From Hymenobacter sp. 15J16-1T3B (GTDB lineage: Bacteria > Bacteroidota > Bacteroidia > Cytophagales > Hymenobacteraceae), in assembly GCF_020711235.1 (NCBI RefSeq), contig NZ_JAJFAV010000003.1, positions 310,001 to 374,000 on the forward strand: a DNA stretch of 64,000 nucleotides, written 5' to 3'. Both the position numbers and the translations under genes were made by a program. Below are positions 6,931-58,265 of the stretch, piece after piece. The notes under the pieces are model-generated. The model ran no database searches and was not told the origin of the DNA. It saw only the letters and a list, made by a program, of their open reading frames with translations. The stretch's first letter is position 1. Every line of letters begins with the position of its first letter.

Positions 6931-7776
6931 TTAGCGCGCAGCGCCGGCGGTGCGTTTGATGAGCACGGCGGTGTGGTCGGGCTCCTTGTCGGCGTCGTGC
7001 ATTTCGGAGCGCACCATGCCCACCCCGGGCGCGTAGTAATCGACCACGCGCTTGACCGAGCGGCGGGCTATGTCGGCGCGGGCCTGCGTCACGTACTCGT
7101 AGCGCGACTCCACCTTATAGCACTGAAACGTGCCGGCGGGCGTGGTGATGCTTTCGGGCCCGCTGAGCCGGCGTTCCGACACGTCGGTGATGACCTGCGC
7201 AATGTCGACGCTGGGCGAGCTGACCTGCACCGTGAGCTTGCCGCCCGGCAGGGCGCCGGCCGTGGGCTGGTTGGGCCACGCCAAGTGCACCGGCTCGTAG
7301 GCGAAGCGCCGGTCGCGGAAGGAGCGGAGCATGGCGGGGTCGAGCAGCAGGCGGCCGTCGGTGAGCACCGTGTCGCGGCGGCAGAGGTAGACGTATTCGT
7401 CGTTGCGCTGCAGGCGGTTGCTGGCGTCGTAAAGGGAGCTTTTCAGCAGCACTTCGGTGTAGGCCGGGGCCTTCTTGGCGGCCTCGTGGGGCGTGATGCG
7501 GGCCACTTTCAGAATCTGCAGGCCTTCGGGCTTGTTCTTTTCGTTAAGCAGCTGGTACGTCAGCTCGGTGCCGTCGCTGAGGCCGAAGGGATGCTCGCAG
7601 CTGGGGGCCGCGCCGGTGGGGGCGGGCCGGGCCATGGCCGCGGACGTGTCGACGGGCGGGGTGCCGGCGGGGGCCGCCGTGGTGAGGGCCTGCGGAGCGT
7701 CGGACGAGCGGGCGCAGCCGGCCGCGAGGGCCAGCAGGGCAAGGAAAGCAGGGAAGCGGAGCGGGTGGTGCGGCAT
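6931..7776 (-). CDS. Lipoprotein with DUF3108/TapB-like domain
   Basis: The 281-aa frame starts at 7776, which gives a lipoprotein signal MPHHPLRFPAFLALLALAAG with Cys at residue 21. The frame is open far upstream but nothing there looks coding. The mature part begins with a Pro/Ala linker, then CEHPFGLSDGTELTYQLLN. Beta-strand patterns follow, such as LTVQVSSPSVDIAQVITD and TTPAGTFQCYKVESRYEYVT, ending in VVDYYAPGVGMVRSE. This resembles the DUF3108-like/TapB family found in Bacteroidota envelopes. The role is unknown. Assignment to the family is by motif resemblance only. Confidence 0.75.
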   Translation of the reverse strand: MPHHPLRFPAFLALLALAAGCARSSDAPQALTTAAPAGTPPVDTSAAMARPAPTGAAPSCEHPFGLSDGTELTYQLLNEKNKPEGLQILKVARITPHEAAKKAPAYTEVLLKSSLYDASNRLQRNDEYVYLCRRDTVLTDGRLLLDPAMLRSFRDRRFAYEPVHLAWPNQPTAGALPGGKLTVQVSSPSVDIAQVITDVSERRLSGPESITTPAGTFQCYKVESRYEYVTQARADIARRSVKRVVDYYAPGVGMVRSEMHDADKEPDHTAVLIKRTAGAAR

Positions 7777-32591: not shown

Positions 32592-32639
32592 ACAAGCAAC
32601 CGGCCGGCCCCGCGTCTGCGGGGCCGGCCGGTTGCTTGT
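32592..32639. terminator. Perfect 22-bp stem terminator
   Basis: The left arm 32592-32613 and right arm 32618-32639 are exact inverted copies with a four-base loop (GTCT). It lies 23 bases past the stop of the small gene at 32663-32800 (- strand), so it probably ends that transcript. Confidence 0.8.
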
Positions 32640-51547: not shown

Positions 51548-51693
51548 GCAGTGGCAAGCTCAGCGGTTGGCGCTTGGGCCGCCGCGCCGCTTAACGATGC
51601 AAAGCCGGATTATATGATAACGGCGCGGGGCGGGCGCGCAGGCCCGGCCCGCGGGTAGGAGTGGGGAGAGGTCGGGCCGCCAGATGTATAGGC

Positions 51694-51769
51694 CGTCATG
51701 CTGAGCCCCGCGAAGCATTTCTACCGAACAACGAAGCGGTAGAGATGCTTCGCGGGGCTCAGCATGACG
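51694..51769. repeat. Perfect palindromic repeat with 25-bp arms
   Basis: The arm CGTCATGCTGAGCCCCGCGA (from 51694 to 51718) is perfectly inverted at 51745-51769; an inner TCTACCG/CGGTAGA pair extends the stem. The 365-base gap between 51548 and 51912 holds only this element; no gene was found. It belongs to the widespread GTCATGCTGAGC-type repeat style. Confidence 0.8.
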
Positions 51770-51912
51770 TTCTTTATTTATTGCTGACTATGCAGCCTAA
51801 GAGGCACGAAATTCCAGCTGCTCCCGCGCCGCTCAAACGGTTTCGGGCGGGGATGAAGGCGGCTACAAACGCTGGTTCGGCGAAGCCCGGCATCCGGCCC
51901 GCCCGCGCCGGC

Positions 51913-52764: not shown

Positions 52765-52873
52765 GTCATGTCGAGCTGGTCGAGACATCTCGCTCGATAG
52801 TATCCTTCTCTTCAAAAGGAAGGACTACTCGTGGCCGTCAGCACGCGAGATGTCTCGACCAGCTCGACATGAC
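52765..52873. repeat. Palindromic repeat with perfect 29-bp arms
   Basis: GTCATGTCGAGCTGGTCGAG (52765 onward, arm to 52793) is perfectly inverted at 52845-52873. The arm is shared with the repeat at 27155-27267. It lies between the SDR and enolase-superfamily genes, which are on the same strand, so it may influence their co-expression. Confidence 0.8.
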
Positions 52874-54149: not shown

Positions 54150-54848
54150 ATGATTCCTTACTACGAACCATTTCCAAAGCTTATTGAACGCCTGGCCGCC
54201 GCGCCCCACATCGAGTTGCTGCAACGGAGGTTCGACTTTCCGCTTGAATCGGCGCATGATCTAACAGACACGGCGCAGTTCGTAGAAGAAAAGTTTGGCT
54301 TCGCGCTGCCGGAGCAGGAATGGCCGTTGGCGTTCATGCCCGCTGAGATGGACATTGCCTGGATCAGTCGGCCGGACGCTCCCTTGCCGCCGGACTGTGA
54401 ACAACTCACGGGCTGCATCAGCTTGGTCAACTTCACGGTGTCCTTCGATGATTGGGACTACCACCTGGACCGGATCAACCCGAACCACGCGCCGTTTGCC
54501 CACTGCTCGTACTTCGAGACGGGCGGGGCCGAGGACTTCGACTACCGCACGTTCCTGCACTTCGTCCGGGGCCAGGGCCAGGCGCCCGACGTGCGCCTCT
54601 TCGACCGCCCCGACGTGCTGCCGCTCACCCTCTCGATGGGCGAATACGTGCAGGCGGCCCTGGCCTGGCACGGAGCCTACGGCTGGCAGCTGCTGTACCT
54701 GCCGCTAGACGTGTTTCGGGCCCTGCCCTGGGTTACGCGCCAGAAAGCCTACCAGCTGGCCAAAGTCCTGCCTGCCCTGTTCCCCGACGCCGACTGGTCC
54801 GTCATCGATACCCGGCGCGCTTACTTCGATACCGACCCCGAACGGTAG
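54150..54848 (+). CDS. Immunity-like protein, array paralog 1
   Basis: A 232-aa cytoplasmic protein without signal or membrane segment, start MIPYYEPFPKLIERLAAAPH. It shows VEEKFGFALPEQEWPLAFMP, MDIAWISRPDAP, CSYFETGGAEDFDYRTFLHF, and the conserved end GEYVQAALAWHGAYGWQLLY with DADWSVIDTRRAYFDT. Three more genes downstream share this pattern. The style (early LPE motif, small acidic soluble protein, tandem copies) resembles SUKH-type immunity proteins of polymorphic toxin systems. No family is confirmed, and no toxin gene is in view. Confidence 0.75.
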   Translation: MIPYYEPFPKLIERLAAAPHIELLQRRFDFPLESAHDLTDTAQFVEEKFGFALPEQEWPLAFMPAEMDIAWISRPDAPLPPDCEQLTGCISLVNFTVSFDDWDYHLDRINPNHAPFAHCSYFETGGAEDFDYRTFLHFVRGQGQAPDVRLFDRPDVLPLTLSMGEYVQAALAWHGAYGWQLLYLPLDVFRALPWVTRQKAYQLAKVLPALFPDADWSVIDTRRAYFDTDPER

Positions 54849-54887: not shown

Positions 54888-55598
54888 ATGCGCGCTTCTT
54901 ACCCCGAGCAGTTTCAAGCCCTGATTCAAAGCCTCGCCCACAACCCACAGGTACGCCTGCTGCGACAAGAGTTATCAACGGGTACAAGGACCGACGCTTA
55001 CATTCGACAGTACCAAGAGGCATTCGTTGACCATATGGGCTTTGATGCCGGGTTCGAGGTGTATAAGCTGTTTCTGGCCACGCCATCCACGGACGTGTGC
55101 TGGACCACGGGCGCGGACACGGCCCTGCCCGACGGCGGGCCCGAGCTGATGGGCTGCATCAGTCTGCTGAGCCTGAGCAAGAGCCTGAACGATTCGGCTT
55201 ACCGGCTAGACGAGCTGAACCCGTCGGCGGAGTTTGCCCACGCCTCCTTTTTCGAGACGGGCGGGGCCGAGGACGCGGGCCTGCGCACGCTGCTGCGCTA
55301 CGAGCGGGACCACAAGAAGCTGCTGGGCCTGGCCGTCTTCGACCGCCCGGACGTGCGCCCGCTGACCATCGGCATCGACGCGTACGTGCAGGCGGCGCTG
55401 GCCTGGCGCGGGGCCTACGGCTGGCAGTTGCTGTACCTGCCCTTGGCGGAGTTTCGGGCCCTGCCGCTGCCCACCCGCCGCCACGCCTACCGCCTGCCCC
55501 GGCTGCTGCCCGCCCTTTTCCCCGACGCCGACTGGAGCATCATTCACACCAAGCAGGCCTACTTCAATACCGAACCGGCGCTTCCGGCAGAGGGATGA
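54888..55598 (+). CDS. Immunity-like protein, array paralog 2
   Basis: A 236-aa cytoplasmic protein. It starts MRASYPEQFQALIQSLAHNP. It keeps ASFFETGGAEDAGLRTLLRY, VFDRPDVRPLTIGIDAYVQA, RGAYGWQLLYLPLAEFRALP and DADWSIIHTKQAYFNTEP. Its N-terminal third differs strongly from paralog 1 and carries no LPE motif. The gene follows paralog 1 after 39 bases, so they are probably co-transcribed. No function beyond the array assignment can be stated. Confidence 0.75.
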   Translation: MRASYPEQFQALIQSLAHNPQVRLLRQELSTGTRTDAYIRQYQEAFVDHMGFDAGFEVYKLFLATPSTDVCWTTGADTALPDGGPELMGCISLLSLSKSLNDSAYRLDELNPSAEFAHASFFETGGAEDAGLRTLLRYERDHKKLLGLAVFDRPDVRPLTIGIDAYVQAALAWRGAYGWQLLYLPLAEFRALPLPTRRHAYRLPRLLPALFPDADWSIIHTKQAYFNTEPALPAEG

Positions 55599-55900: not shown

Positions 55901-56611
55901 ATGTACCCTTACCACAAGCGGTTTCAGGCGCTGATTGAGCAGTTGGTTGCTAACCCCAGCATCCAAGTGCTTCACCAGCAGTTTTCCCCCTCCCTCAGGT
56001 CACCGGAAGCAGTGGCTGGCATGGCTCATCATGTGGAGAAGGAGTATGGCTTTCTGCTACCAGAGGAAGATTGGGAACTGTACTACATGCCTAGCGCTAC
56101 GGACATTGCTTGGCTGACCCGGCCCGAAATAGCACTATTGCACACCAACGAACGGCCCTCTGGTTGCTTGAGTATGCTTAACCTGACGGTGTCTTTGTAC
56201 GAACCGGAGTTTCACCTCTACAACTCCAATCCGGGTTATGAGGACTTTGTGGGCTGTTCGTACCTGGAAACGGGTGGAGCCGAAAGCTGGGATTATCGCT
56301 CATTCCTGCGCTACGACCAGATTCAGCGCCACCTGCTGCGGGTGGCGCTGTTTGATCGGCCCGACGTACTGCCGATGACTACCACCCTGGGCGAATACAT
56401 GCGTGCTGCCTTGGACTGGCACGGGGCCTACGGCTGGCAGCTGCTCTACCTGCCGCTGGACGAGTTTCGGGCCCTGCCCTGGGTCACGCGCCAGAAAGCC
56501 TACCAGCTGGCCAAAGCCCTGCCCGTCCTGTTCCCCGCCGCCGACTGGTCCGTCATCGAGACCAAACGCGCCTACTTCGATACCGAACGGACGCTTCCAG
56601 GAGAGGCCTGA
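55901..56611 (+). CDS. Immunity-like protein, array paralog 3
   Basis: A 236-aa cytoplasmic protein starting MYPYHKRFQALIEQLVANPS. It shows VEKEYGFLLPEEDWELYYMP, DIAWLTRPEIALL, CSYLETGGAESWDYRSFLRY, GEYMRAALDWHGAYGWQLLY and ADWSVIETKRAYFDTE. The first two-thirds are clearly AT-richer than its C-terminal third, which is nearly identical at DNA level to the end of paralog 1 (54680-54835 against 56430-56585). This mosaic suggests gene conversion or recombination inside the array. Confidence 0.75.
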   Translation: MYPYHKRFQALIEQLVANPSIQVLHQQFSPSLRSPEAVAGMAHHVEKEYGFLLPEEDWELYYMPSATDIAWLTRPEIALLHTNERPSGCLSMLNLTVSLYEPEFHLYNSNPGYEDFVGCSYLETGGAESWDYRSFLRYDQIQRHLLRVALFDRPDVLPMTTTLGEYMRAALDWHGAYGWQLLYLPLDEFRALPWVTRQKAYQLAKALPVLFPAADWSVIETKRAYFDTERTLPGEA

Positions 56612-56767: not shown

Positions 56768-57469
56768 ATGCCTTCCCAATACTACCCCGTTCTGCGGCTT
56801 ATGGCTGCTGGCATAGAAAAGCATTTTCAGCCCGTACCGCCGTTGCAATACGCGCCGCCGACGAAGCGGGAGCTGGCCAAGATGGAGCACCTGGACTGGG
56901 TGCCGGCATCGATCCTGAACTTCAGCCAGGAGTTCAACGGCTTTCGCGTCCGCTGGACTACGACGGCCGAGCAGCAGGCGCGCTACACGGAGCGGGCGCA
57001 GCGGGGGCTGCGCCAGGCGCGCGGGCGCATCGAGTTCAAGCGCCTGCAGGACATGTACGGCAGCTGGGAAGGCGTGGTGTACTTCGCCGACCAGCCGCTG
57101 GACAATGCGCGGCTGCGCGCCTTCAAGGTGGTGGATATGTTCAGCGACGAGGCCGCCGTGGGCCTGTTCCACGACGCGCAGCAGGAGGCCCAACTCTACC
57201 TGTGCGTGTTTGGCGAGGAGGAGCCCGCGCCGCTGGGCGTGGACTTCGAGGGCTACCTGCAGCTGCTGACCCTCACGCTGGGCCACGTCTACTGGCCCTA
57301 CCTGCTGCGCGATGTGCACCAGCACTTCACCCTGCAGCCGGCTGAGCCCTACACCGCCCCCACCAACGCCAGCGCCCAGCAGTGCGCGGCCGAGCTCAGC
57401 GCCCTGCTGCCCGACTTCTCCCTCGATGCCTTTGTGGCCTGCTACGACCAGGTCCGCCTGCGCCGCTAG
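56768..57469 (+). CDS. Unrelated SUKH-like immunity candidate in the array
   Basis: A 233-aa cytoplasmic protein. It starts MPSQYYPVLRLMAAGIEKHF and has ASILNFSQEFNGFRVRW, RGRIEFKRLQDMYGSWEGVV, VVDMFSDEAAVGLFHDAQQE and PLGVDFEGYLQLLTLTLGHV. The LGVDFEGYLQLLTLTLG end is characteristic of SUKH/SMI1-type proteins. It shares no motif with the paralogous genes around it and was probably captured into the array. A toxin partner is not in this window. Confidence 0.6.
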   Translation: MPSQYYPVLRLMAAGIEKHFQPVPPLQYAPPTKRELAKMEHLDWVPASILNFSQEFNGFRVRWTTTAEQQARYTERAQRGLRQARGRIEFKRLQDMYGSWEGVVYFADQPLDNARLRAFKVVDMFSDEAAVGLFHDAQQEAQLYLCVFGEEEPAPLGVDFEGYLQLLTLTLGHVYWPYLLRDVHQHFTLQPAEPYTAPTNASAQQCAAELSALLPDFSLDAFVACYDQVRLRR

Positions 57470-57496: not shown

Positions 57497-58265
57497 ATGT
57501 ACGATTACGTCACCGCCATCAATCAAATCCTGGCGCGGCTGCGGGCCAATCCCCGCGTCGACCTTTCCTACCAAGACTTCGGGGTTGATCCGCTCAGCTT
57601 CGACCCGACGTGGCTGGAAGAGATGGACGAGTTCATGGCCGAGCTGTGCGGGGCGCCTTTCCCCTTGCCGGCCGAAGACCGGCAAGGGGAAAGGCGCCCC
57701 GCACGACTTTGACATTGCCTGGGAAAACACCCCGGACCAGCCCCTGGCCGGCGGCCTTCTTCCTCTCATGGGCGGGTGCCTGAACCTGCGCGGGCTGACC
57801 ACGGCCTTTGCCGAACCTACCTACAAGCAGCTGAGCCGCCGCTACTCGCCCGCGTACATCGAGGACGTGCCGCTGCTGCGCATCGCCACACTCTTCGACT
57901 GCGGCTCGGTAGCCAACGTGACCAACTACCTGACCTACCTGCTCTACGACCCGGCTACGCCCCAGTACCAGGGCCTGGCCGTCGAATATGGCTCACGCAT
58001 GCTGCCTCTCACGGTGGACATCGGCGCGTACGTGCGCGCCGGGCTGGCCTGGCACGGCGGCTGGGGCTGGCGCCTGCTCTACCTCTCGCTGAAGGACTTC
58101 TGCACCCTCGACGGCAGCGACCTGCTCACCCTCTACCAGCTCTACGACGGGCTGCCGGAGCTGTTTCCCGACGTGGACTGGTCCATCATCGACACCAAGA
58201 AGGCGTACTTCGCCATTGCCCGCCCGGCCGCCCTGCACTACCGCGCCCGGCAGCTTCGCCCCTAA
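57497..58265 (+). pseudogene. Immunity-like protein, array paralog 4, frameshifted
   Basis: The frame starting at 57497 (MYDYVTAINQILARLRANPR) runs to a stop at 57710-57712 after only 71 residues. The continuation (DFDIAWENTPDQPLAGG, GAYVRAGLAWHGGWGWRLLY, DVDWSIIDTKKAYFAIARP) lies in another frame up to 58265. A 28-nt segment (57680-57707) between two GAC codons is the inverse copy of the sequence just upstream. Removing it joins the halves into one 246-aa frame with the motifs of the paralogs (family 232-236 aa). It may be inactivated, or the insertion may be an assembly artefact. Confidence 0.75.
57646..57704. repeat. Perfect 26-bp inverted repeat inside paralog 4
   Basis: GTGCGGGGCGCCTTTCCCCT (left arm 57646-57671) is exactly inverted at 57679-57704, with a seven-base loop CCGAAGA. 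The right arm contains the extra 28 bases that break the reading frame. Confidence 0.9.

Follow-up and report, generated by a model that had tools for sequence, protein, structure and literature searches.

A perfect 26-bp palindrome breaks a member of a candidate immunity-like gene family in Hymenobacter, probably through a short-range template switch

The window analysed here is a stretch of 64,000 nucleotides from the genome of Hymenobacter sp. 15J16-1T3B (Hymenobacteraceae). Between positions 54153 and 58265 it carries an array of four members of one gene family, of which three are intact and the last is broken at a perfect inverted repeat (Table 1). The second paralogue has lost the residues of the F..P and DIAW motifs (FDAGFEVYKLFLATPSTDVCW) and is still in frame. 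Embedded in the array at 56768-57469 is a gene for a 233-amino-acid protein of a second family that has no name, and proteins resembling its product are again encoded close to the first family in further genomes (L051, L052).

Table 1. Coordinates of the family members and of the parts of the inverted repeat in the window
Feature	Coordinates	Strand	Basis or description
Paralogue 1, intact	54153-54848	+	Homologue search and alignment
Paralogue 2, intact	54888-55598	+	Homologue search and alignment
Paralogue 3, intact	55901-56611	+	Homologue search and alignment
Broken gene, intact 5′ part	57497-57679	+	61 codons to ..FPLPAED; alignable with homologues as far as the LP..D motif
Left arm of inverted repeat	57646-57671	+	GTGCGGGGCGCCTTTCCCCTTGCCGG; native coding sequence, in frame, encoding the family-conserved G..FxLP stretch; putative template
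Loop of inverted repeat	57672-57678	+	CCGAAGA, 7 nt, native codons; encodes acidic residues (xED) conserved after LP
Right arm of inverted repeat	57679-57704	+	Exact reverse complement of left arm; 57680 to at most 57704 replaces native sequence
Broken gene, intact 3′ part	57705-58265	+	From DFDIAW... to the stop codon, in a frame that is shifted; ~50% identical to nearest homologue, no stops

The upstream frame of the broken gene runs from an ATG at 57497 to a TGA at 57710-57712, and the remainder of the homologous sequence is open in a different frame as far as 58265, which bears out an earlier note on this DNA that placed the frame break at the palindrome. The predicted product is a truncated peptide of 71 amino acids, and from a truncation of this extent loss of function is expected. 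Because both halves of the gene are otherwise intact, we take the event that formed the hairpin to be recent.

Direct comparison of the two arms reveals that all 26 of 26 bases are complementary across the seven-base loop. The geometry is thus as described previously, and the right arm is indeed an inverse copy of the sequence that precedes it. With the base composition of the window, the expected number of perfect 26-bp repeats with loops of 30 nt or less in 64 kb is approximately 5e-9. The corresponding RNA hairpin is predicted to fold with a free energy of -69.3 kcal/mol (z = -9.3 relative to shuffled sequences). GAC triplets, also pointed out earlier, are present at 57677-57679 and 57705-57707, where they flank a segment of 25 nt. 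No second copy of either arm was found in a search of the genome, which indicates that the donor of the copied sequence was local and argues against a mobile element.

Perfect hairpins with arms of at least 16 bp were sought in 444 kb of the genome, consisting of 19 stretches of 20 kb together with the window, and were compared with gene calls made in this analysis by a simple codon-usage model. A total of 39 hairpins were recovered, many of them terminator-like or REP-like in appearance, and 37 are located outside called genes. The two that overlap called genes are the one described above and another at 32592-32639, which is probably intergenic because it lies upstream of the likely signal-peptide methionine. 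By these calls, the hairpin at 57646-57704 is the only one of the 39 that is clearly inside a gene. It does not have the character of an intrinsic terminator, for which an intergenic site and a run of T residues after the stem are required; it is located within a gene and is followed by GACTTTGAC. The window also contains REP-like inverted repeats at 51687-51776 and 52765-52873 (GTCATGCTGAGC..GAAGCATCTC and one variant), and the genome has related copies at other sites.

Matches to the family of the broken gene were found in five of 204 Hymenobacteraceae genomes, including that of the window itself. No intact allele from the same species was found among these 204 genomes or among the eight genomes of the genus, and a search of a plasmid collection gave no match. 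One scan of genome contigs yielded a single relative, and the gene's nearest named relative was found in a Hymenobacteraceae MAG. In a sister species (G003), the broken gene is reduced to approximately its first 40 nt, beside the same neighbour, and this near-complete loss suggests that the gene is dispensable in this lineage. At that site (L019, G003:C1:115000-130000, near position 7000 on the minus strand), this 5′ remnant is followed by G-rich repeats of GGAGGGGGTGTT... units that look as though they had overwritten the gene.

Searches of Pfam, NCBIfam and PADLOC, and of the PDB by sequence and by fold, returned no match to the family. The predicted structure is a poor model (pLDDT 66), so the missing fold match means little. 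In three cases (L020, L049 and L050), the gene for a relative immediately follows that for a large protein, and these large proteins are alike in their front parts and differ at their ends. Toxins that share fronts, have variable ends and are followed by an immunity gene form the arrangement typical of polymorphic toxins. The large proteins in question (L020:820-2598, L049 and L050) have an alanine-rich front (RLRLRLPTLPTERLQ...) and different C-termini, each followed by a family member, and are candidate polymorphic toxins; the one from L020:820-2598 has no Pfam match above the cut-off. No toxin-like gene with a variable C-terminus was seen beside the array in the window. We regard the assignment of this Hymenobacteraceae family as immunity-like as a lead, since no family library, structure or fold confirms it.

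The earlier note had explained the frameshift by a 28-nt templated insertion with duplication of GAC, an explanation that accounts for the presence of this triplet on both sides and for the 246-amino-acid frame that is restored once 28 nt are removed. That arithmetic is right. However, any net change of +1 or -2 nt leads to the same 246-amino-acid frame, and so the calculation is no proof that 28 nt were inserted. The two possibilities can be told apart by comparison with homologues, comprising the three paralogues in the window and genes from four other genomes of the Hymenobacteraceae. Among seven homologues, the spacing from the proline of F..P (or the aligned position) to DIAW is 13-15 residues, or 39-45 nt. 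Specifically, it is 13 residues in L016, its neighbouring paralogue at 54888-55598, the paralogue at 55901-56611, L024, L026 and L027, 14 residues in L020 (as counted by eye) and 15 residues in L022 and L023. The broken gene has 40 nt between these motifs, corresponding to 13 codons and one additional base. Removing 28 nt would leave 12 nt, or four amino acids, a spacing that occurs in no homologue.

Moreover, the native W.L..MP. stretch is absent from the broken gene and the right arm sits in its place, where translation in either frame yields nothing of this family motif except one proline. Because the 40-nt spacing agrees with the 39-45 nt of homologues and W.L..MP. is lost only across the right arm, the sequence is best read as a replacement rather than an addition, in which a native segment of approximately 24-27 nt gave way to an inverse copy of at most 25 nt and the length changed by +1 or -2 nt overall. 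A simple 28-nt insertion, which conflicts with the spacing in every homologue and would imply that the conserved W.L..MP stretch had been deleted, is very unlikely. What stands of the original interpretation is the footprint of a template switch and the resulting frameshift. Occurrence of the palindrome within an open frame of homologues had been named as evidence that would speak against it, and none of the homologues compared contains this palindrome.

Within the inner stem, the LP codons are paired with the codons at the W-Q position, and traces of this pairing are visible in relatives. In L024, the sequences CTGCCTG and CTGGCAG at the same positions enclose the same 7-nt loop and form six of seven pairs, and five of seven pairs can form at this register in L026. 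When seven homologues are pooled, 27 of 49 pairs are possible at this register, which is the best of 45 (mean 13.1, s.d. 4.6), although the homologues are related and their independence is overstated by these values. This rank suggests that codons of the family itself can form a weak hairpin at the appropriate site. For the direct ancestor of the broken gene a seed hairpin can only be inferred, because the unmutated allele was not found and the nearest homologue, L020 (~50% identical), carries leucine instead of W and forms only two of seven pairs at the same register.

We consider it likely that a short-range template-switch mutation, of the kind also called quasipalindrome correction, broke this member of the family. 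During replication, the nascent strand would have folded back just past the LP-xED codons, using a weak hairpin, TTGCC...GGCAR, that the codons of the conserved motif LPxxDWQ already formed. Polymerase would then have copied approximately 19-25 nt of the upstream arm before returning to the proper template near the P-x-D-F codons, an exchange that would both shift the frame and make an imperfect repeat a perfect palindrome of 26 bp. The return point may fall within the last six or so bases of the right arm, because the terminal proline of this arm matches the MP of the family and may be native. A segment exactly reverse-complementary to adjacent sequence is what a template switch should leave, and the arms agree at 26 of 26 positions. 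The copy should also take the place of native sequence, as the spacing and the lost motif indicate by comparison with homologues instead of a direct parent.

Other origins for the palindrome are less probable. The contig could contain an assembly or library artefact, a fold-back chimera that conceals an intact gene. Library preparation is known to generate fold-back chimeric reads where inverted repeats occur (PMC10908179), the genome is a draft of 42 contigs and the remainder of the gene is intact. However, the published artefact reads occur at low frequency and continue along the opposite strand (PMC10908179), whereas the sequence in the window switches back to the original strand immediately beyond the arm, and native bases are replaced. 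Such a pattern would demand two switches and makes an artefact less likely. The chimera would also have to prevail in the consensus sequence of a 486-kb contig, and the location of the other surveyed hairpins outside genes gives no sign of artefacts scattered through coding regions. On balance we judge an artefact unlikely.

A selected hairpin, acting as a programmed frameshift signal or as a regulatory switch that keeps two frames joined, would be in keeping with a very stable stem between two open frames. Joining the halves would nevertheless require a shift of +1 (or -2), no slippery heptamer is seen ahead of the stem when the sequence is read by eye, the hairpin is absent from every homologue and the conserved segment would be missing from a joined product as well, all of which render such a function extremely improbable. 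Insertion of a small palindromic mobile element related to REP or MITE sequences can almost certainly be discounted, even though REP-like repeats exist elsewhere in this genome, given that multiple dispersed copies are required of such an element and neither arm has another copy. In addition, the left arm is native coding sequence and no length was added.

A template switch of the type that we favour has well-described counterparts. Quasipalindrome mutation is an established mechanism in E. coli, in which the nascent strand is used as template and the repeat comes closer to perfection (PMC7202029), while a process with four switch points can yield a perfect stem in a single event (PMC8794818). 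Common to both models is a nascent strand that folds back on itself, is extended by copying its own upstream portion and then returns (PMC8794818, PMC7202029). The present case resembles the mutations explained by the Ripley model, such as those at the E. coli thyA hotspot and in lacZ QP reporters, in that an imperfect repeat would have become a perfect palindrome through short-range, intramolecular copying of the nascent strand that changes the frame of a coding gene. It differs in being a natural event in a Hymenobacteraceae genome, in the rewriting of approximately 19-25 bases at once rather than a few and in that the parental allele is not seen. As in the four-point switches of Loytynoja and Goldman, the reverse complement of a neighbouring sequence takes the place of a block of bases and a stem arises in one step, but here the event is reconstructed from distant homologues instead of a parent-child alignment. 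Long perfect inverted repeats within protein-coding genes are also found in the mitochondria of Nematomorpha, where the palindromes are reported to be numerous and to be kept in coding frames (PMC6649704), in contrast to the single, frame-breaking example described here.

The mutational mechanism itself has long been known, and the broken gene adds a well-resolved case to a familiar type of mutation. It offers a clean natural instance of block replacement by template switching within a bacterial gene, a likely seed can still be recognized in relatives, and it illustrates that homologue spacing can distinguish replacement from insertion where frame arithmetic alone cannot. A broader proposal, to which we give little credence, is that the LPxxDW(Q/P) codons constitute a built-in quasipalindrome and make this site a hotspot of recurrent template switching, with the potential to inactivate members of such arrays again and again. 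The findings suggest that a protein motif may carry a mutational hotspot in its own codons.
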